A stretch of 30,134 bases of DNA, from positions 1 to 30,134 of IMG/VR virus record IMGVR_UViG_3300000361_000007. One strand, written 5' to 3'. The position numbers and the translations under genes were made by a program. This DNA comes from a virus. The notes under the pieces are model-generated. The model was not told where the DNA came from, made no database searches, and saw only the letters and a program-made list of their open reading frames with translations. This document shows positions 175 through 30,134 of the stretch, piece after piece. How positions within the stretch are numbered: the stretch's first letter is position 1; each line of letters opens with the position of its first letter.

Positions 175-1215
175 ATGAACCATACACACCAACAAGGCAG
201 GAAGGTGCGCGACGAACATCCACGTAAAGTCCGACGGATGTTTCTTAAGAACAAGCGCGGCGAAGCCAAGAAGTCCACAGCTCGGGCATACGAATACCCG
301 ACAAAACACTTCGTTTCGTTTATCGAACGCGAGGGCATCGACTCGATGCGAGACGTTGACGGCTATCTAATTGAGCAGTGGAAGAACAAGAGACAAGACG
401 AGGTCGCACCAGTCACGTACCAAGGCAACGTCAAGAAAATCAAGACGTTCATCGGATTCTGTGAACGGTCGAACTTCATCACACACGGAACGTTCGACGC
501 AATAGACGTACCCTCAATCAAAACGTCCGATAAGTCCAGTGACGAGCAAGTAGATAGTGCAGAGGCCGAGCGCCTTCTCGACTACCTCGATACCTACGAA
601 TACGCGACACGGCAGCACGTCTTGTTCTCTGTTCTGTGGCAAACCGGCTGTCGAATATCCGGCGCAATCGGTCTGGACGTTGACGACGTGTCTGTGGTAA
701 ACACGGACGAATACGTGATTGACTATAGTAACCGTCCAGAGTCGGGAACGCCGCTCAAGAACGACGACGGTGGAGAGCGCCGAGTGACAATCACGAAGGA
801 ACTCTGCGCTCTCATTGAGGACTACAGGCAGGCTCACCGCCATGATGTGATTGACGACTACGGACGGGAGCCGCTGTTTACAACAGAATCACGGAGACTG
901 ACGCGCCAGAGAGCGTACAAGAATTTTACGGCTCTCACGAGACCGTGCGTTTACACCGATACGTGCCCGCACGCCAGAGACACAGATGAATGTGAGGCAG
1001 CTCGTCTCAAAAAGAAAGCCTTCGGCTGTCCTTCATCGAAATCTCTGCATCCCATACGACGTGGCTCTATCACGCATCACCTGAATAGCGGATGGCCGAA
1101 ACAGAAAGTCAGCGAGCGGTGTGACGTGAGCCTCGACGTACTGGAGACGCATTACAATAAACAGACAAAGGAAGACGAGCGACAGCAACGCAAGAAGTAC
1201 GTAGAGCAGTTATAG
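175..1215 (+). CDS. int: Tyrosine recombinase / integrase
   Basis: 346-residue site-specific recombinase that would integrate and excise the element at the tRNA-derived site. The N-terminal part (about 30-115) looks like the helical SAM-like core-binding domain. The catalytic domain shows the first Arg in TGCRISG (R160), the HxxR box HPIRR (H292, R295) and the nucleophile Tyr in ETHYN (Y327). Between boxes I and II lies a Cys/His-rich insertion (C258, C264, H266, C273, C285) that could bind a metal. The length is normal for haloarchaeal integrases. The ATG is preceded by GGAG about 8 bases upstream. It is transcribed away from the att fragment and convergent with the late block. Confidence 0.95.
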   Translation: MNHTHQQGRKVRDEHPRKVRRMFLKNKRGEAKKSTARAYEYPTKHFVSFIEREGIDSMRDVDGYLIEQWKNKRQDEVAPVTYQGNVKKIKTFIGFCERSNFITHGTFDAIDVPSIKTSDKSSDEQVDSAEAERLLDYLDTYEYATRQHVLFSVLWQTGCRISGAIGLDVDDVSVVNTDEYVIDYSNRPESGTPLKNDDGGERRVTITKELCALIEDYRQAHRHDVIDDYGREPLFTTESRRLTRQRAYKNFTALTRPCVYTDTCPHARDTDECEAARLKKKAFGCPSSKSLHPIRRGSITHHLNSGWPKQKVSERCDVSLDVLETHYNKQTKEDERQQRKKYVEQL

Positions 1216-1252
1216 GACGAGAAGGCCGCGAGTAGACTATTGGTCAAAAGTG

Positions 1253-1259
1253 TTATTTA
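1253..1259 (+). promoter_or_regulatory. TATA-like box for the small membrane gene
   Basis: TTATTTA is centred 25 bases upstream of the ATG at 1281, the spacing expected for an archaeal promoter giving a leaderless transcript. No Shine-Dalgarno sequence is seen before that ATG, which agrees with leaderless initiation. Confidence 0.4.
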
Positions 1260-1280
1260 CTGCCAGATTGTATATTTGAT

Positions 1281-1532
1281 ATGGAACTACCCGCAAGAAT
1301 TAAAGAATACTTCGTTGTGAGTATGGTTATCATCTTATTCTCGTTTGTCATATATGGGCTCTTATATGAGTTTAGTGATGTTGGTGCTGGTGGTCCCTTT
1401 TCTGGAATCTTCTCGCTTGTCGCCCAAGTAACCGGAGTCGCGTTTAGTATTCTGACATCTCCCTACACTATAGCCCTCGCTATCATTGCTCTCATACTGG
1501 TACCCTTAGCATCTATCGACAGTGGAAGATAG
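1281..1532 (+). CDS. Small protein with two membrane segments
   Basis: 83 residues, not recognised as a family member. Two hydrophobic stretches (about 11-30 and 62-79) flank a Gly-rich loop with VGAGGPFSG near residues 37-45. The short N-terminus is charged and the C-terminus ends in DSGR. It lies 65 bases after the integrase on the same strand with its own candidate promoter. Holin, superinfection-exclusion or other envelope roles are all possible for a small viral membrane protein; none is shown by the sequence. Confidence 0.6.
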   Translation: MELPARIKEYFVVSMVIILFSFVIYGLLYEFSDVGAGGPFSGIFSLVAQVTGVAFSILTSPYTIALAIIALILVPLASIDSGR

Positions 1533-1624
1533 CTCAAAGCCGGGAACGCGGGCCGAGACAGTGTAGCCACTGACCGAGGTGGGGTCAATAAAATAAATGC
1601 AAAAATCGGAGCGCCTACCCGTCG

Positions 1625-1993
1625 TTACAGAGGCGGAGTGATAGCAGTAGTTCCGATGTAAAAGGTAATAATCAGTGGAGTTAGAAACCACCACGGTTCG
1701 TGTTTAATCGTCTTCATGCCTATCGTCTTGTACTCCGGGTCGTCGTGGGACAGACTGCGAAACGCGGGCTTCCCGAATATTGAGTAGCCGACCAGTAAGA
1801 GTACGAGAACGCCAACCGGAGCTTCAAGACTGGAAGCGTACAGAGTACCAAGAAGGAGACCGACGAGACCGAGCTGGAAGGCGTGAAGCTCATTGACAGT
1901 CACGGGGTGTCCGATAACCGGGTCACGAAACATCACGCGGTCGCCTCTCTGTAGCAATTTCCGCTTATCTGGTTCCTGGTATTCGTCAGTCAT
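1625..1993 (-). CDS. Membrane protein at the end of the late block
   Basis: 122 residues, function unknown. A charged N-terminal segment (about 1-35) is followed by hydrophobic stretches at about 38-54, 59-75 and 100-120, so three membrane passes are likely. It is the last gene of the minus-strand virion block, 6 bases downstream of the tail-fibre stop and convergent with the plus-strand small membrane gene. A late position and several membrane helices would fit a lysis or envelope function, but no diagnostic motif is visible. Confidence 0.6.
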   Translation of the reverse strand: MTDEYQEPDKRKLLQRGDRVMFRDPVIGHPVTVNELHAFQLGLVGLLLGTLYASSLEAPVGVLVLLLVGYSIFGKPAFRSLSHDDPEYKTIGMKTIKHEPWWFLTPLIITFYIGTTAITPPL

Positions 1994-1999
1994 TGTAGC

Positions 2000-3217
2000 T
2001 CAATATTCATTGAAATGTCGTTCAGACTCGTCCTCCAGAGTATAATCACCCGACCCGTTCTCGATAGACTGAACATCTGAATCGCCGTCGTAGAATCGAG
2101 AAATGGCATCTTCCCACGATTCATCGTCCTTCTTGGTGGTAATCATACCGCGACCCTGCGTGCTTTTGTCGTCAGTCCGGCGACCGAGTACAATTACATC
2201 GTACTCTCCGTCCTCGTTAGCGTTGACCTCCCAGTTGTCTGTATCGAGGTAGGCAACCCCGAAGTGGTTCACTGGAGTTACGCTCGTTATCCAGTCGTCA
2301 CCAAAATCGCCATTCAGTACGTACTCGGGGAAGTCTGGAGTGGGTGTGTCACCCTCCACCGTCACTCTGTCTCGGTAGATAAGACCACCGGAGACTGGTC
2401 CCTCGTATGTTCCATGCCGAAGGTCGTAATTTGAATCCGAGGGATGGTCAATAACAAAGTCCTTGTTTCCACCGACCTCGAAATCGTTCTTGACTTCTAC
2501 TTCGCCAGCAGAAATAGACAATTCGGTGTTACCACCAATACGAGTGTCTATGAATCCATCCCCCATCCAAATACGCGACGAAACTCCATTTGGGAATGTA
2601 TTATAAATAGACGACGTTGAAGAAGAATCCGCACCGATACGAAGGGAACCCTCGGTTATCAATGCCCCCTCTGCGCGAAAACTGCCTGATGTTTCGATGT
2701 CTCCATGACTCTCTACAGCGTCAACTGCATCTTGTGGGTCTATCGGTTGGGGCTGCGAATGAACTTCGTTGTCCCTGTGTTCGGATATGGACTCAGAGAT
2801 ATCGGAGGGGACTGCGTACGTGACACTGTGTGCCTCGTCACCGTGTTCTTCCGGTGGCTGTGGTCTGGTATGCACGCCCTCACTTTCGTGTTCACTGAGC
2901 GCGTTAGAAATATCACTGTAATACGCCAACTCTCTCCACGAGCTGCTGCCGCCGTCGTACACTGCAAGACGACGATTGTCAGTTCGCCACACCAAGTGTC
3001 CGGGTTCTGGACTGCCGGGATATCCCGAACCAGATTCACTTTCGAGTCTGTCGTTAGTCAGTGATACGAGGTACTGAACGTCCTTAATCAGATTACGGTT
3101 GACGAAATTGTCCCACGCATCAACCGGCTGTTCTCCCTTAACATAGCTGTAGCCAGCCGGGAAGGCCTCGCCAACGTCGCCCCAAGATGTTTCTAAATTA
3201 GTAGAATAGTCTGCCAT
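2000..3217 (-). CDS. Tail fibre / receptor-binding protein
   Basis: 405 residues, Ser/Gly/Asp-rich and beta-prone. Residues 1-100 look like a baseplate-attachment part. A duplicated module follows (about 100-150): two segments each start SDIS, carry SEH and end VHxxPQP, a His-containing fibre-repeat style. A long repetitive middle (about 165-260) has alternating hydrophobic residues typical of trimeric fibres. It directly follows the gpI-like baseplate gene, the position of fibre genes in P2-like tails. Host receptor binding is inferred from position and composition. The GLUG protein at 22772-24544 could be a second receptor-binding protein. Confidence 0.75.
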   Translation of the reverse strand: MADYSTNLETSWGDVGEAFPAGYSYVKGEQPVDAWDNFVNRNLIKDVQYLVSLTNDRLESESGSGYPGSPEPGHLVWRTDNRRLAVYDGGSSSWRELAYYSDISNALSEHESEGVHTRPQPPEEHGDEAHSVTYAVPSDISESISEHRDNEVHSQPQPIDPQDAVDAVESHGDIETSGSFRAEGALITEGSLRIGADSSSTSSIYNTFPNGVSSRIWMGDGFIDTRIGGNTELSISAGEVEVKNDFEVGGNKDFVIDHPSDSNYDLRHGTYEGPVSGGLIYRDRVTVEGDTPTPDFPEYVLNGDFGDDWITSVTPVNHFGVAYLDTDNWEVNANEDGEYDVIVLGRRTDDKSTQGRGMITTKKDDESWEDAISRFYDGDSDVQSIENGSGDYTLEDESERHFNEY

Positions 3218-5398: not shown

Positions 5399-6051
5399 GC
5401 GATTTTTGTATCAGTCCCATCTTCGTTCGGTATATCTGTCGTCCCGCTGCCTCCTGAATCAGTCCAGCTATAATCGTGTGTGTGGTCTTGAATAGCCACA
5501 CTTACTGCCGACTCGACCTCACCGACTATAATATCAGTCAGTGCGTCGATAAAGACTGATTCCTCCGCGTCAACGGAAATGTCATTTTCTGACTCTATGA
5601 CGATATCATTCTCTGACTCGATAGTAACGTCGTGACCACCTTCGAGAACAATCTGATACCTGTTTACAAATTCGTCGTACACGAAAGACAAGTGTGTGTC
5701 CGAATCCGAAGCAAGGGTGATATCGTACTTTCCAGAATCGTTTTTCTGAAACCGCAGCTCGGTCTCGTCGTCAAGTTTCAGACACACGTCACCCTCTCCG
5801 AGACCTTCGGGGAGCTGTGGCTTCGCCGGATTATGCGGGAACCGGGCGACCCGTTCCCGGTCAACCGTTGCTACTTCAACAATATCACCCTCCTCTGGAA
5901 CGAGCCACATGGACGGTTTCGAGGTTAGGAATGGAATCTCACGCCGTTCAACGCCAGGGCCGGTAACGACGCTGACGAAGACCTTGTTTATTTCTTCGTC
6001 AACGAATACAGATGAGACTCGTCCAAGCTTTGTTTCCGTCATATAAATCAC
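5395..6051 (-). CDS. gpV-like baseplate spike protein
   Basis: 218 residues. The N-terminal half (about 5-90) has the alternating strand pattern of the OB-fold in gpV/gp5-type spikes. Residues 130-185 form repeated strands (TIESENDIVIESENDISV) typical of the triple-stranded beta-helix needle. A HTH sequence (His-x-His) near residue 193 could be the metal-binding spike tip described in gpV-type spikes. The start at 6051 overlaps the upstream stop as ATGA; a second ATG three codons later is an alternative start. Confidence 0.82.
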   Translation of the reverse strand: MIYMTETKLGRVSSVFVDEEINKVFVSVVTGPGVERREIPFLTSKPSMWLVPEEGDIVEVATVDRERVARFPHNPAKPQLPEGLGEGDVCLKLDDETELRFQKNDSGKYDITLASDSDTHLSFVYDEFVNRYQIVLEGGHDVTIESENDIVIESENDISVDAEESVFIDALTDIIVGEVESAVSVAIQDHTHDYSWTDSGGSGTTDIPNEDGTDTKIA

Positions 6052-7373
6052 TCCGAGGGGTCAACCGGGTTCTCGCCGTCTTCCAAATCTTCTTCGGTCT
6101 CGAAGAATTGGTCAGTTTCGTAGTCGTAAATCACAGAGCTAACCTCGACTTCCGGGGCTATTCGACTAACCTCTGCTGTAATTTGCCAGCCGACTCTTGC
6201 GTTTACCTTATGTAGAACGCGATTCACGATGAACCGACCGCCCTCAACAGTCCGGTCACAGACCCGACTCTGTTCTGGTGTGACTGCGATAAAGTCGCCA
6301 ACTGTCAACTCAGCCAGAGTCGTTTTGTCTTCTGAGGACATACCGTTGAACTCGATGGTGCCAGAGTTGTGGCTCATGTAGCTATCAATGAATTTCCTTT
6401 GTATCGCGCTCTCCATTTCCTCCTGACTGCGAACGCGAAGTGGGTCATCGAGAACGCCGTGGTTTCCTTCGAGGGACTTGTCTACGGTCTCGACCTGGGC
6501 AACGAAATGAACATCTCTGGTTTCTTCGTCTCCGAATCTGGCTGCTGTCAATGGTAGCGGAATACGATAGCGAACAGCGGAGCTTCTACCGTGCAAAGAT
6601 ACCAGACTGTTACGTGACGTTCCGACGTGATATCCTGAAATACTAAGCGTATCGAGTTGTGGGTCTCCGTACACGGCAAGTGCATTAATCGACCGAGATT
6701 CTGGTAGCCCAACTTCGAGAACGCCGTCTTTGTCTGACCATACAACGACACCGAAGACCTCCTCTACTTCTTTGAGGGCAGCATAGAGTGTATAGTCGTC
6801 AAAGTCAAAGCCAGCCTCGTGCTTGTGAATATTTGCACTCAGCTCAATAGCCCGCATACCGTGGTCAACCACAAATGACACCGCCTGTCCAAGTGTACTG
6901 GAACCTACTGTATCTTCGATGCGGTCGCGTCTCGTTCTAAGTGCTTTTTCAGACACGCTATCGTCTACAATTTCGATTCCCGTGAGCAGACCGTTAGGGT
7001 CATTTCGTCGGCTGAATAGTTCCTCAACAATTTCCTCACAGGTAATACTGTTGTATGATTCACTGATAGTCTCGTCTTCGAGTATAGTGAGGGGGTCAAG
7101 CAACTCGACCCACGCCTGCTCCTCCCCGAATGTGATACCGTCCTCGGGCACGTAGTAGCGGTTCTGTTTCACACCGCCGATTGAGAGATTGACGGGTTCT
7201 CGGTATGCGCTCCTGTCTTCAATTAAGGACGCTGCTTCTATCGAGACCTTCACGCGAGCGTAGGCAAACTTGTGACGCTTGGCTCTTGTCGAAATTTCAT
7301 ACGGACGAATACGGATACCTCGCTGTGGAAACTCCAGCTCTACGCCATTAGCTAAGTCACAGGCCTGAACCAT
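6048..7373 (-). CDS. gpD-like baseplate hub protein
   Basis: 441 residues, assigned as the tail hub (P2 gpD / T4 gp27 role), which connects tube to spike. The protein is beta-rich throughout, with LEVGLPESRSINAL near 220-235 and a C-terminal domain containing ELTVGDFIAVTPEQSR. Its place between the gpU-like gene and the spike gene matches the U-D-V order. The C-terminal tail is very acidic. The stop overlaps the spike start by ATGA and the start overlaps the gpU-like stop by one base, so translation is likely coupled. Confidence 0.75.
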   Translation of the reverse strand: MVQACDLANGVELEFPQRGIRIRPYEISTRAKRHKFAYARVKVSIEAASLIEDRSAYREPVNLSIGGVKQNRYYVPEDGITFGEEQAWVELLDPLTILEDETISESYNSITCEEIVEELFSRRNDPNGLLTGIEIVDDSVSEKALRTRRDRIEDTVGSSTLGQAVSFVVDHGMRAIELSANIHKHEAGFDFDDYTLYAALKEVEEVFGVVVWSDKDGVLEVGLPESRSINALAVYGDPQLDTLSISGYHVGTSRNSLVSLHGRSSAVRYRIPLPLTAARFGDEETRDVHFVAQVETVDKSLEGNHGVLDDPLRVRSQEEMESAIQRKFIDSYMSHNSGTIEFNGMSSEDKTTLAELTVGDFIAVTPEQSRVCDRTVEGGRFIVNRVLHKVNARVGWQITAEVSRIAPEVEVSSVIYDYETDQFFETEEDLEDGENPVDPSE

Positions 7374-27419: not shown

Positions 27420-27845
27420 ATGAGTAGCTCCTACCCCGACGATTGGGACGACCGCCGCCGCCGTGTCTACCGCCGGGACAATTATACGTGTCAGAACTGC
27501 GGTGTCCGGGGCGGCAGTGGCCCTGGTGCCGAGTCTGTCGAGCTGCACGCTCATCACATCGTTCCCATCTCCAAGGGCGGCACTCACTCGACCTCTAATC
27601 TGAAGACACTCTGTGTCGCCTGCCACAATGCCATCCATCACAAACACGCTGTTGCTCCCACAACTCGAAACGAGGACCACGAACAAGACGGGAACGCACC
27701 GACTGGGCAGACCGCTGTTTTTGCCATCACGATGATTGTACTCGCGTTGTGGCTTGGCTACGAAGACGGTGGTATCATCCAAGCTCTCCTCTTTTTCGCT
27801 ATCATGGCACTCATGTTCGGACTACTGTATCATCGGATTCGCTAA
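27420..27845 (+). CDS. HNH endonuclease with two C-terminal membrane segments
   Basis: 141 residues from the ATG at 27420, preceded by GGTGAGG about 9 bases upstream; an in-frame GTG five codons earlier is less likely. Residues 20-75 are a complete HNH nuclease: zinc ligands in CQNC (C24, C27) and CVACH (C65, C68), the catalytic block HAHHIVP (H43-H46) and Asn in TSNLKTL (N60). Residues 80-98 form a polar linker; 99-113 and 118-137 are hydrophobic, giving two membrane helices. HNH proteins beside terminase genes often aid packaging, but the membrane anchor is unusual and may point to a role against incoming DNA. Confidence 0.85.
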   Translation: MSSSYPDDWDDRRRRVYRRDNYTCQNCGVRGGSGPGAESVELHAHHIVPISKGGTHSTSNLKTLCVACHNAIHHKHAVAPTTRNEDHEQDGNAPTGQTAVFAITMIVLALWLGYEDGGIIQALLFFAIMALMFGLLYHRIR

Positions 27846-28249: not shown

Positions 28250-28388
28250 ACAAGGCCTACTCAAACGACCAATATCACTCAGTAATATCTTAATATAATC
28301 ATCACCATGCTATTGTCAAGCACAGCACAGAGAAGGCCTGAAACAGCCGAAAACAAGCGAATCAAGTTATTAAAATGAAATCGACACC

Positions 28389-28395
28389 TTTAAGT
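28389..28395 (+). promoter_or_regulatory. Candidate promoter of the structured RNA
   Basis: TTTAAGT is a TATA-like element of haloarchaeal type. A start about 25 bases downstream (near 28415) coincides with the first paired segment of the structured RNA, which supports the assignment. Another AT-rich box (TTAATATAA near 28290) is an alternative upstream promoter. Confidence 0.4.
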
Positions 28396-28414
28396 CATCA
28401 CCCATCTGTGTCGT

Positions 28415-29497
28415 GGTATCGACTGATGAACCGAAAGGCGAGGTCGTGGCCGTCGTTTGTACGGTCGCAAGCCACACACCTGCCAACGACCACGGGTGAC
28501 AGACGTACGAGGCAGGTGTACCCGACCACGGGAGTCGGGCACGCCATACTCGGATGTGGGCTTAGGTCCACGTCGAGGCATGGATGGAACGAGAGCCAGC
28601 CTGTAGGCTGTCCTCCGAGTGCCCCTCAAGGGTTCGCGCCCTCCGGGTAATGAGGCGCGAGACACAGCCAAGGCGCAAGCCTGTGCAAAGCCGTAGAAGT
28701 GGTCAAGCCCCTCCGGGGCTTATCGGGTTCCCAAATACACGGGAGAGTTCGCCCCCTTCACATGGCAAGCCATGTGACCTTCACGGGTCATAGGGTTGGA
28801 CAGCGAAGCCTGACTGACGACCTCTCACACTCTACGAGTGTCACGTCGTCGGAACGGTGGAGTCAGAGGTGCAGCCTTCGGCTTGAACCGGGACACAGAG
28901 CGCTTCCCACCTTCGGTGGTAGTAGCATGGTGTCACGTTCGATGACCACACAACAGAGTTGTGTGACGACAAGAACGCCGGGCTTTGTGCAAGGAGGCCC
29001 CGGAAGGGGACGGCGAAGGTGAATACTGCCTTATAAGGCAGCGGAATTTCCTCGGCGTGAATAGGCCTTTGGCCTACACGGTGCAGCCAAGCTGATGACG
29101 CCAGAGCGGTTCCCGGCCATCTCCCTACGGGAGAATCACCACTGACCACCCTCCGGGTGGCAAGGTCGGATTGTGTGATGACGGCAGAGGCACTCAAGCG
29201 AAGCTTGTTCGAGATGGGCAAATTCCTACGGAATTTCAACGATTCCGTTCACTCCTCGGAGTGAACGCCGGAAGCACAGGACATGAGTCCTGTCCGAACA
29301 GGTGCCGAGCGAGTTCGAGGCGAAGCAGCTCACCCCTTGGGGTGAGTTCCGATAAGGTGCAGCCAGCGGATACCACGGTTCCCTCGGGAACCGCCGCTAA
29401 AGGCCAATGACGCACGGACTGCTAAAGCAGTCACTTGGGCGAACCGGAAGCCACCGATAGGTGGTACAGAAAATCGACGTGGTCTTTTGACCAAAAC
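28415..29497 (+). ncRNA. Large hairpin-array RNA, previously unrecognised
   Basis: No ORF here resembles the acidic proteins of this genome. The sequence is a series of perfect short hairpins. From the 5' end: CGAC/GTCG with inner CC-GAAA-GG (28420-28446), GTGGC/GCCAC (28446-28475), a 9-bp stem ACACCTGCC/GGCAGGTGT (28476-28519), CCCGAC/GTCGGG (28521-28539). From 28597 on, about twenty stems of 5-9 bp with 3-4 nt loops follow, for example at 28705, 28758, 28827, 28947, 29026, 29062, 29120, 29146, 29220, 29246, 29277, 29329, 29376 and 29417. Outer helices enclose some (28816-28850, 29056-29080, 29365-29398). Loops recur: TAC, TCC, TTC, CTCG. It resembles in style, not sequence, large ornate RNAs such as GOLLD, ROOL and OLE. 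Confidence 0.75.
28868..29364 (+). repeat. Repeated short motifs inside the structured RNA
   Basis: GGTGCAGCC occurs three times (28868-28876, 29080-29088, 29356-29364). TGATGACGSCAGAG occurs twice (29093-29106, 29176-29189). AACGCCGG occurs twice (28974-28981, 29264-29271). TGATGA, the C-box motif bound by L7Ae in kink-turns, is found at 28424, 29093 and 29176. These are single-stranded or junction segments between hairpins and suggest repeated modules. Confidence 0.6.
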
Positions 29498-29552
29498 GCT
29501 GCTGACTGGTGTTACCCCTACGGGGTAGTGGGTTCGATTCCCACAAGCAGCA
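29498..29552 (+). ncRNA. tRNA-like structure at the 3' end of the RNA
   Basis: The 5' acceptor strand GCTGCTG (29498-29504) pairs with AAGCAGC (29545-29551) over 6 bp plus one G-A, and A29552 is in the discriminator place. The T-arm is perfect: GTGGG (29528-29532), loop TTCGATT (29533-29539), CCCAC (29540-29544), joined directly to the acceptor stem. Between them are eight bases with a GG that could dock on the T-loop, and a 6-bp hairpin TACCCC-TAC-GGGGTA (29513-29527) in place of D and anticodon arms. No anticodon loop exists, so it is not a decoding tRNA. It could be a processing signal for RNase P and tRNase Z, as in mascRNA of MALAT1, or a tmRNA-like end domain. Confidence 0.7.
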
Positions 29553-29553
29553 T

Positions 29554-30106
29554 GGCTTCAACTGGAAGCCTGACCTCTATCTCCACAGGAGATACGTCAC
29601 AGAACAGCAGAACTATGGCAGCTATCCCCAACTTCGCAGAAGTTGCACAGAGCGAGAACAAAGAAGCGGCTGAGTCGGAGACTCAGAAAGGCGAGACAGT
29701 ACAGACACTCGAACTCACCGAAGGTGAGATTGACAACTACACGGCGTATGAGGCGATGGTGGACGTTGGCCGCTACGCCTCAGCTCTGCTGAAGGAAACC
29801 GGCGACGACCGTTACCAGTCAGTCGTAGACTGGGCAGTGGAAAAGAAAGAAGAACTCCGTAAGGAGTGCAAGGAACAGGACGGGAACCTCCCGATGTTCC
29901 GGGCAGCCTTCCCGGTCGAGGACCGCGCAAATGATGTGTGGGTCCTTCCCGCCGAGGAAGCGGCAGAGGTCGGCATCGACTACGACAGCGAGGACTACAT
30001 AGCCCTTCCCGTCTACGACGGGACGAAGTGGAACCCGAAGCTGATTGACGACGAGCCTGTCGAAGACAGCAACGACGAGAGCGAGACGGAGACCGTCGAA
30101 GACGGT
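29554..30106 (+). repeat. Hairpins embedded in the following ORF
   Basis: Perfect stems with mostly 3-nt loops continue through the leader and coding region: GGCTTC (29554-29570, 5-nt loop), TATCTCC-ACA (29578-29594), CAACTTC-GCA (29629-29645), CTGAGTC-GGA (29670-29686), CTCACC-GAA (29714-29728), TCAGC-TCT (29780-29792), CAGTC-GTA (29820-29832), ACTCC-GTAA (29854-29867), TCCCGTC-TAC (30007-30023), CTGTC-GAA (30057-30069), ACCGTC-GAA (30092-30106). Confidence 0.85.
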
Positions 30107-30134
30107 GAGCCACAGACAGAAGCTCAGAAGCGGG
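29615..30134 (+). CDS. Acidic protein, 3' end beyond the window
   Basis: Open to the window end (at least 173 codons). Composition is haloarchaeal: Glu/Asp-rich with a helix NYTAYEAMVDVGRYASALL near 40-58, VVDWAVEKKEELRKE near 67-82, a strand part with FRAAFPVED and VWVLPAEEAAEVGIDY near 95-125, IALPVYDGTKWNPK and an acidic tail. No family recognised. An in-frame ATG at 29552 overlaps the last base of the tRNA-like structure; cleavage there would remove it, so 29615 is preferred. It is linked to the structured RNA by proximity, direction and shared hairpins. Confidence 0.7.
   Translation, partial: MAAIPNFAEVAQSENKEAAESETQKGETVQTLELTEGEIDNYTAYEAMVDVGRYASALLKETGDDRYQSVVDWAVEKKEELRKECKEQDGNLPMFRAAFPVEDRANDVWVLPAEEAAEVGIDYDSEDYIALPVYDGTKWNPKLIDDEPVEDSNDESETETVEDGEPQTEAQKR

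Follow-up and report, generated by a model that had tools for sequence, protein, structure and literature searches.

A hairpin-studded leader, probably a functional RNA, ahead of a gene of unknown function in a Hafunaviridae-like virus

Near one end of the 30,134-base virus contig analysed here (IMG/VR record IMGVR_UViG_3300000361_000007, referred to throughout as the window), a stretch of about 1.2 kb crowded with short inverted repeats precedes a gene that is cut by the end of the record. The question raised by this locus is whether the stretch is a structured RNA, a protein gene that has escaped recognition, or a set of palindromes that act as DNA. A sequence-only reading had proposed a large structured viral RNA.

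The contig is probably a fragment and includes genes for terminase, portal, capsid, sheath, baseplate and integrase. The best matches of its portal protein were those of Halorubrum tailed viruses 25 and 27 (59% and 58% identity), followed by HF2-like viruses. HRTV-25, HRTV-27, HRTV-5 and HF2 are members of the Hafunaviridae, and by its sequence the window virus resembles this group and appears to be a haloarchaeal tailed virus. The gene order from the small terminase to the integrase in HRTV-25 is broadly that of the window read backwards. The hairpin-rich stretch, here called the leader, adjoins the small terminase and an HNH gene and is oriented opposite to the late genes. The HNH domain protein (27420–27845) has a C-terminal half that looks hydrophobic and membrane-like by eye.

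A hairpin array without a recognisable protein

Hairpins were counted as non-overlapping perfect stems with loops of 3–4 nt. Between 28390 and 29552 there were 20 with a stem of at least 5 bp, 15 with at least 6 bp and 8 with at least 7 bp, compared with means of 2.52, 0.68 and 0.16 (maxima 8, 4 and 2) in 500 dinucleotide shuffles, and 2.84, 0.93 and 0.21 (maxima 8, 5 and 2) in 136 overlapping stretches of the same length from elsewhere in the window, all ending before 28300. For stems of at least 6 bp this is an excess of about twenty-fold over chance, and a separate run over 28415–29614 found 16 such stems compared with 0.69 in 100 shuffles. The folding z-score of 28560–29550 (991 nt) was −5.6, a value reached by none of the shuffles, of which there were only 20. 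When the leader was folded in 300-nt pieces, z was −1.6, −2.3, −3.7 and −4.9 on the sense strand and −1.2, −3.8, −3.9 and −3.3 on the antisense strand, a similarity expected because palindromes fold on both strands. The array first noticed from the sequence alone is therefore real, but the limits originally given to it, ending at 29552, were too narrow: the leader extends as far as the start codon at 29615, and the gene beyond it contains hairpins too. The parts of the leader and its surroundings are listed in Table 1.

Table 1. Coordinates of the leader, its helices and neighbouring features (positions in the window unless another genome is named)
Feature	Position	Strand	Sequence and evidence	Form in the Natronorubrum relatives
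Integrase	175–1215		Opposite end of the record from the tRNA-like element	
Putative promoter box CTTTAAGTC	28384–28396	+	From sequence; transcription start predicted near 28415	
CTTTAAGT box	28388–28395	+	From sequence	
Predicted structured leader RNA, non-coding, length about 1.2 kb (ends predicted)	28415–29614	+	Hairpin excess; two relatives; 10 of 12 frames without a protein family	
Helix A	28892–28934	+	Outer GACAC/GTGTC around conserved GAGCGC..TAGTAGCA; 4 of 5 pairs compensated	GTCGTC/GACGAC and GTCGC/GCGAC
Helix B	29026–29041	+	CTGCCT/AGGCAG; 4 of 5 pairs compensated	
Helix C	29054–29102	+	GGCGT/ACGCC enclosing conserved linker CCTACACGGTGCAGC; 2 of 5 pairs compensated	AGCGGT/ACCGCT
Helix F	29220–29236	+	AAATTCC TAC GGAATTT; 3 of 6 pairs compensated	AACAGC GAA GCTGTT and AACATC TAC GATGTT
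Helix G	29248–29265	+	TTCACTC CTCG GAGTGAA; 5 of 5 pairs compensated	
Helix I	29329–29346	+	CTCACCC CTTG GGGTGAG; 2 of 5 pairs compensated	GCCCC TTCG GGGGC and AGATCCC CTTG GGGATCT
Conserved unpaired linker AGGTGCAGC	29355–29363	+	CCGAYAAGGTGCAGC across the three sequences	
Helix J	29365–29398	+	Outer AGCGG/CCGCT, 5 of 5 compensated; inner CGGTTCC CTCG GGAACCG, 4 of 7	
Helix K	29417–29432	+	GACTGC TAAA GCAGTC; 2 of 6 pairs compensated	GACACC with GGAA or GAAA loop
tRNA-like element	29498–29552	+	Acceptor GCTGCT/AGCAGC, short arm, T-arm GTGGG TTCGATT CCCAC; candidate site for RNase P/tRNase Z	
Hairpin TATCTCC ACA GGAGATA	29578–29594	+	Between the tRNA-like element and the start codon	
First gene after the leader, phrog_29632	29615–30134	+	PHROG E 1.8e-55; cut by the record end	
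HF2 leader (position in HF2)	470–1912		Close to the terminal repeat and to a putative nick site annotated in HF2	

A promoter-like box had been claimed ahead of the first helix and CTTTAAGT is indeed found there. This motif forms part of the beta motif of the tested class I promoters of HF2, which are located at 16–49 kb and not at the HF2 leader (PMC8707807). TATA-like boxes were also seen by eye at the 5′ edge of the HRTV-25 leader, of most HF-type leaders and of the two Natronorubrum leaders described below.

Twelve open frames of at least 50 aa overlap 28415–29614. Ten were searched against PHROG and Pfam and gave no match at E ≤ 0.1; the two left out were the frame containing the gene at 29615 and a short frame across the start of that gene. 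Stop-free runs of up to 122 codons in the sense and 135 in the antisense direction are what an unrecognised or decayed protein gene might leave, but the three sense frames contain 12, 11 and 12 stops, no protein family was found in these ten frames, and the relatives carry indels of many lengths inside hairpins with the pairing retained. We regard a protein gene as extremely improbable. A search of the leader against the 4227 families of Rfam 15 with cmscan found no family at gathering score, in agreement with the earlier impression that the RNA is apparently new. GOLLD, ROOL and OLE, to which it had been compared, were absent from the matches at E ≤ 10 (5, 4 and 3 listed for the window and the N. 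sulfidifaciens and N. bangense relatives, respectively), and the likeness to these RNAs extends to style and nothing beyond.

Leaders in related viruses and compensatory change

Relatives of the leader were found in two of 17 related viral loci reached via the terminase. One is a provirus of Natronorubrum sulfidifaciens JCM 14089 (locus L003, nhmmer E 1.8e-20) and the other a provirus of N. bangense JCM 10635 (locus L004, E 2.5e-22). In both, leader and terminase are on opposite strands, and the leader immediately precedes a phrog_29632 gene, the product of which is 53% and 51% identical, respectively, to the window protein. A protein alignment search led to the same two proviruses. In blastn searches against phages and plasmids neither the window leader nor that of N. 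bangense had a match, and the latter was present in two of 391 haloarchaeal genomes, its own and that of N. sulfidifaciens. When viral contigs were scanned, the window protein found no relative and DNA patterns found no new member of this type among the matches listed.

MAFFT misplaces hairpins between the window and its relatives. Fourteen helices were matched by hand across the three window-type sequences via conserved flanks, without a shuffle control, and among the 72 matched pairs 40 had changed on both sides, one on one side and 31 were invariant, with compensation in 12 of the 14 helices. None of the 216 matched cells was non-canonical and one was G.U; the lack of broken cells arises by construction because hand-matching picked paired stretches, while the two-sided changes do not. 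For helix L, the position reported by the script in both proviruses belongs to helix A, an earlier hairpin of identical sequence, and the letters compared are the same. Linkers, for example CCGAYAAGGTGCAGC and CCTACACGGTGCAGC, were kept while the adjoining hairpins had been rewritten. A candidate long-range pairing of the 5′ end (28412–28420 with 29369–29377, part of the I2 repeat) was not seen in either provirus by eye and was rejected. The window leader is probably a functional RNA, in which folds have been kept while the letters change.

Cultured viruses also have leaders at this place. Beyond the small terminase of HRTV-25, a hairpin-rich leader on the minus strand is followed by gp107. 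This leader has 6 stems of at least 6 bp compared with 0.84 in 100 shuffles (maximum 4), and its pieces gave fold z-scores of 1.9, −2.2 and −0.1. The small ORFs gp108–gp112 are annotated within it (L217 30480–31640), and these, like the leader ORFs gp131–gp134 of HRTV-24 (L232 700–1840, either strand), may be spurious. Gene 121 of HRTV-5 follows a 1.43-kb stretch that carries no annotation and has 6 stems of at least 6 bp compared with 1.06 in shuffles. A second cluster, of 5 hairpins of at least 6 bp in 500 bases, was seen near the HRTV-5 polymerase gene (L221 ~6000–6500, HRTV-5 ~46.0–46.5 kb). The HF-type leader is present in 41 phage records, of which some are duplicates, and 35 of the 41 have no annotated feature beneath the match. 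The corresponding region of HRTV-27 shows no hairpin excess (2 stems of at least 6 bp compared with 1.29); by eye, L219 27262–28227 is rich in GGGGTCTCGG / GTCGACCGG-like repeats in place of hairpins.

An alignment of 13 of the 41 HF-type records yielded a consensus fold of 441 pairs, predicted on the same alignment that was used for counting pairs. In this fold 91.4% of cells pair compared with 85.8% in shuffles (0/500), and 119 of the 441 pairs show two-sided changes compared with 55.4 in shuffles (0/500) and 31–54 in slid structures. Covariation is therefore present among homologues of both types, and together with the lack of a protein family in the ten frames searched it supports the large structured viral RNA first proposed.

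The leader types share no detectable sequence. The leaders of the window, N. bangense, HRTV-5 and HRTV-25 found their own kind or nothing in blastn searches, and profile searches in both directions between types found nothing better than E 0.85. Comparison of the first-gene proteins of the leader types with hhalign gave no convincing match, with E values of 0.0064 (HRTV-25 and window type), 0.45 (HF and window type) and 0.35. For this reason, place and style are the grounds for kinship among the leaders of the window, HRTV-25 and the HF type. The leaders of HF2 and HRTV-5 have the same genomic place as that of the window, a similar size, strong covariation and a hairpin-rich first gene, but differ in having no detectable sequence similarity to it, and the HF helices are longer, with more G.U pairs and other loops.

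Hairpins within the first gene and the level at which they act

The first-gene protein belongs to a PHROG of unknown function (phrog_29632). It had no Pfam match over the cut-off and its structure model was poor (mean pLDDT 37.6). Hairpins with stems of at least 5 bp number 11 in the gene of the window, 15 in that of N. sulfidifaciens and 13 in that of N. bangense, counts reached by none of 300 synonymous-codon shuffles in each case; at 6 bp or more, 0, 0 and 3 of 300 shuffles reached the count. The first genes of HRTV-5, HF2, HRTV-10 and HRTV-25 behaved similarly, with 0 of 200 shuffles each at 5 bp or more and 9, 0, 1 and 0 of 200, respectively, at 6 bp or more. Among five structural genes of the window used as a control, the nearest was the portal gene (12/300 at 5 bp and 300/300 at 6 bp). 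Nineteen other genes were also compared, the lowest being one N. bangense provirus gene (0/200 at 6 bp, 29/200 at 5 bp), and low values were obtained for HRTV-5 g116, g120 and helicase (3, 4 and 6 of 200 at 5 bp) and for one N. sulfidifaciens provirus gene (6/200 at 6 bp, 39 at 5 bp). Since several of the 19 score low, the early regions also have some hairpin excess outside the first genes.

Several of the first-gene hairpins occupy the same alignment columns in the window and the two proviruses even where stems and amino acids differ, as in CTCACC GAA GGTGAG (LTEGE), CTGACC GAA GGTCAG (LTEGQ) and CTGACC TCC GGTCAG (LTSGQ). The HF-type gene shows few clearly compensated pairs over its first 342 nt. 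An unrelated phage contig (L088, IMG/VR 3300017911_000896) has 14 hairpins of at least 6 bp in one kb at 1026–2262, across and around a gene at 1139–2011 (minus), and 0 of 300 synonymous shuffles reach the count for that gene; it may represent a separate instance of a gene studded with hairpins.

Hairpins that run into the first gene, in the window, both proviruses, HRTV-5, HRTV-10, HF2 and HRTV-25, and that keep to shared columns, are what would be expected if leader and gene formed a single armoured mRNA acting in cis, with hairpins that shield it from nucleases or control its translation and with no RNA acting in trans. However, the conserved unpaired linkers and nested helices resemble a folded domain more than plain protection, and possible processing elements lie between leader and gene in two lineages. 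We judge the cis-acting mRNA somewhat unlikely, and it is the main rival to the trans-acting leader RNA that we favour.

Whether the hairpins act as RNA or as DNA was considered separately. Palindromes near a genome end could form single-strand or cruciform hairpins for replication, packaging or protein binding, or be products of template switching. The C(GNA)G loop is very stable in DNA, and this is how triloops of the form C(TNC)G, which make up 21 of 33 in the window-type leaders compared with 17 of 778 in shuffles, read on the other strand. The closing pair is C-G in 54 of the 58 hairpins of the three window-type leaders compared with 517 of 1485 in shuffles. The window-type stems are nearly free of G.U, as the single case among the hand-matched cells shows, six stretches held no G.T and no A.C interruptions of perfect stems, and the HF2 leader has the genomic surroundings given in Table 1.

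A first count of HF-type pairs, predicted from both strands, also appeared to favour DNA, with 78 G.U and 68 A.C, but this was reversed by a control with RNase P RNA and the filtering of broken helices. In a strand-neutral recount, for which the structure was predicted without G.U and broken helices were left out, there were 44 G.U and 16 A.C in the HF leader (34 and 11 in 9 closer sequences), compared with 42 and 12 for archaeal RNase P RNA from 26 haloarchaeal genomes (10 and 3 in a 7-sequence subset). This proportion matches that of RNase P RNA, so on the sense strand the HF leader has the behaviour of an established RNA; the window type varies too little for the same comparison. The leaders of the two proviruses fold slightly better on the antisense strand, and the difference in fold energy between strands is not decisive because coding controls favour the sense strand too. 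The T-arm and the hammerhead described below match on the sense strand, and the conserved linkers and the promoter box at the leader edge also fit RNA. A role purely at the DNA level therefore seems quite unlikely, and an RNA is the better account of the leader.

Candidate processing elements and a possible role

The best Rfam match of the region was between 29498–29551 and the mascRNA-menRNA family (RF01684), at 30.2 bits (E 8e-4) and below the gathering cut-off of 42.5 bits. The element has the architecture of that family, namely an acceptor, a short second arm and a T-arm without a full cloverleaf, and its fold (−25.3 kcal/mol) was equalled in stability by one of 200 shuffles. The tRNA-like end described in the sequence-only reading is thus real as a fold. 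ARAGORN called no tRNA gene in the region and no tRNA reached the Rfam gathering score. As at the 3′ end of MALAT1, where mascRNA is found, a tRNA-like fold ends a long non-coding stretch, but the score of the window element lies below the family cut-off and shared descent is not implied.

A tRNA-like sequence could also be an attP copied from a host tRNA gene, with the remainder of the leader as spacer. The window virus encodes an integrase, and HF2 has a tRNA-like attP near its own (PMC8707807, section 3.6). Here, however, the element has a matching 5′ acceptor strand, the integrase is encoded at the opposite end of the record, and a 22-nt stretch from the 3′ half of the element was found in 0 of 391 haloarchaeal genomes at up to 2 mismatches, a set from which the true host may be absent. 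On this last count the element is not readily recognisable as an attP or a copy of a tRNA, and we consider that explanation very unlikely.

With cmscan, no hammerhead was found in the window leader at E ≤ 10, and no processing element was recognised in the leaders of the two proviruses. In HRTV-25, a type II hammerhead (RF02276, 60522–60595) scored 42.3 bits, over the cut-off of 37, and is sited between leader and gene with its end about 40 nt before the ATG. The hammerhead of HRTV-5 (65997–66064) is just before the helicase gene and outside the leader. In HF1 and HF2, a hammerhead (HHphage) is located 13 nt before the helicase start and a transcript 5′ end has been mapped within three nucleotides of its cleavage site, as reported in PMC3088659. 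For the long transcripts of HF2 the authors suggest processing into shorter ones (PMC8707807). The window resembles HF1 and HF2 in having a candidate RNA-processing element just 5′ of a putative early gene, within what appears to be the same virus family, but it has the tRNA-like element in that place and no hammerhead. The tRNA-like element in the window and the hammerhead in HRTV-25 are thus possible processing elements between leader and gene.

The early regions of HRTV-25 (L217 29768, 27805 and 15923, minus) and HRTV-27 (L219 26715, 23001 and 20533, minus) contain several further tRNA-like elements according to a simple scan for a T-arm plus acceptor. Some are just before a gene and may be points of transcript processing; ARAGORN identified L219 20509–20597 as tRNA-Ala. 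In the N. sulfidifaciens provirus, a tRNA-like stretch with the T-arm GAGGGTTCGATTCCCTC is found 5′ of a later gene (L003 3088–3148, minus), and folds no better than shuffles (57 of 200 as stable).

These findings support a conserved structured leader RNA that heads a transcription unit. By analogy with HF2, in which the first 16 kb is transcribed first (PMC8707807), this first rightward unit would be early. We infer that transcription of the leader would start from the CTTTAAGT promoter and that the RNA would form about 20 short hairpins, several nested in outer helices, with conserved unpaired linkers between them. The processing element would then sever it from the mRNA, by host RNase P and tRNase Z at the tRNA-like fold in the window or by the type II hammerhead in HRTV-25. 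The products would be an early non-coding RNA, stable and about 1.1 kb long, and an mRNA for the first protein with little of the leader left. The free RNA may serve as a trans-acting scaffold, binding proteins or itself, as large phage RNAs may do. Taken as a whole, this account of a leader that is cut free to act in trans appears reasonably likely, and the scaffold role on its own is a tentative suggestion. It is conceivable, although improbable, that leader and gene are together one selected RNA object of at least 2 kb that dictates amino acids in the encoded protein, is retained by the virus family at the start of the early region in at least three forms unrelated in sequence with the cutting device swapped, and may build an RNA particle or compartment in the infected archaeal cell.

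We know of no large structured RNA described from archaeal viruses, and in the full-text literature none was reported for these viruses among the matches listed; a term search found no mention in the available text of PMC8651126 and PMC7911831. GOLLD and ROOL, from bacterial phages, are large, elaborately folded RNAs of unknown function that are often near tRNA genes (PMC12286853). The window leader is similarly predicted to be a large and elaborately folded viral RNA. It differs from GOLLD and ROOL in having no Rfam match, in coming from an archaeal virus, in its position 5′ of a protein gene into which its hairpins run, and in being made of many short perfect hairpins.

Leaders of this style are found in the culturable viruses HF1, HF2, HRTV-5 and HRTV-25, where they are mostly unannotated, and the question of their function is therefore testable at once. 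In the hairpins within the coding sequence, the structure of an RNA would clearly be seen to constrain the sequence of a protein. If processing elements are interchangeable, this would account for both hammerheads and tRNA-like folds being found inside the early regions of these viruses.
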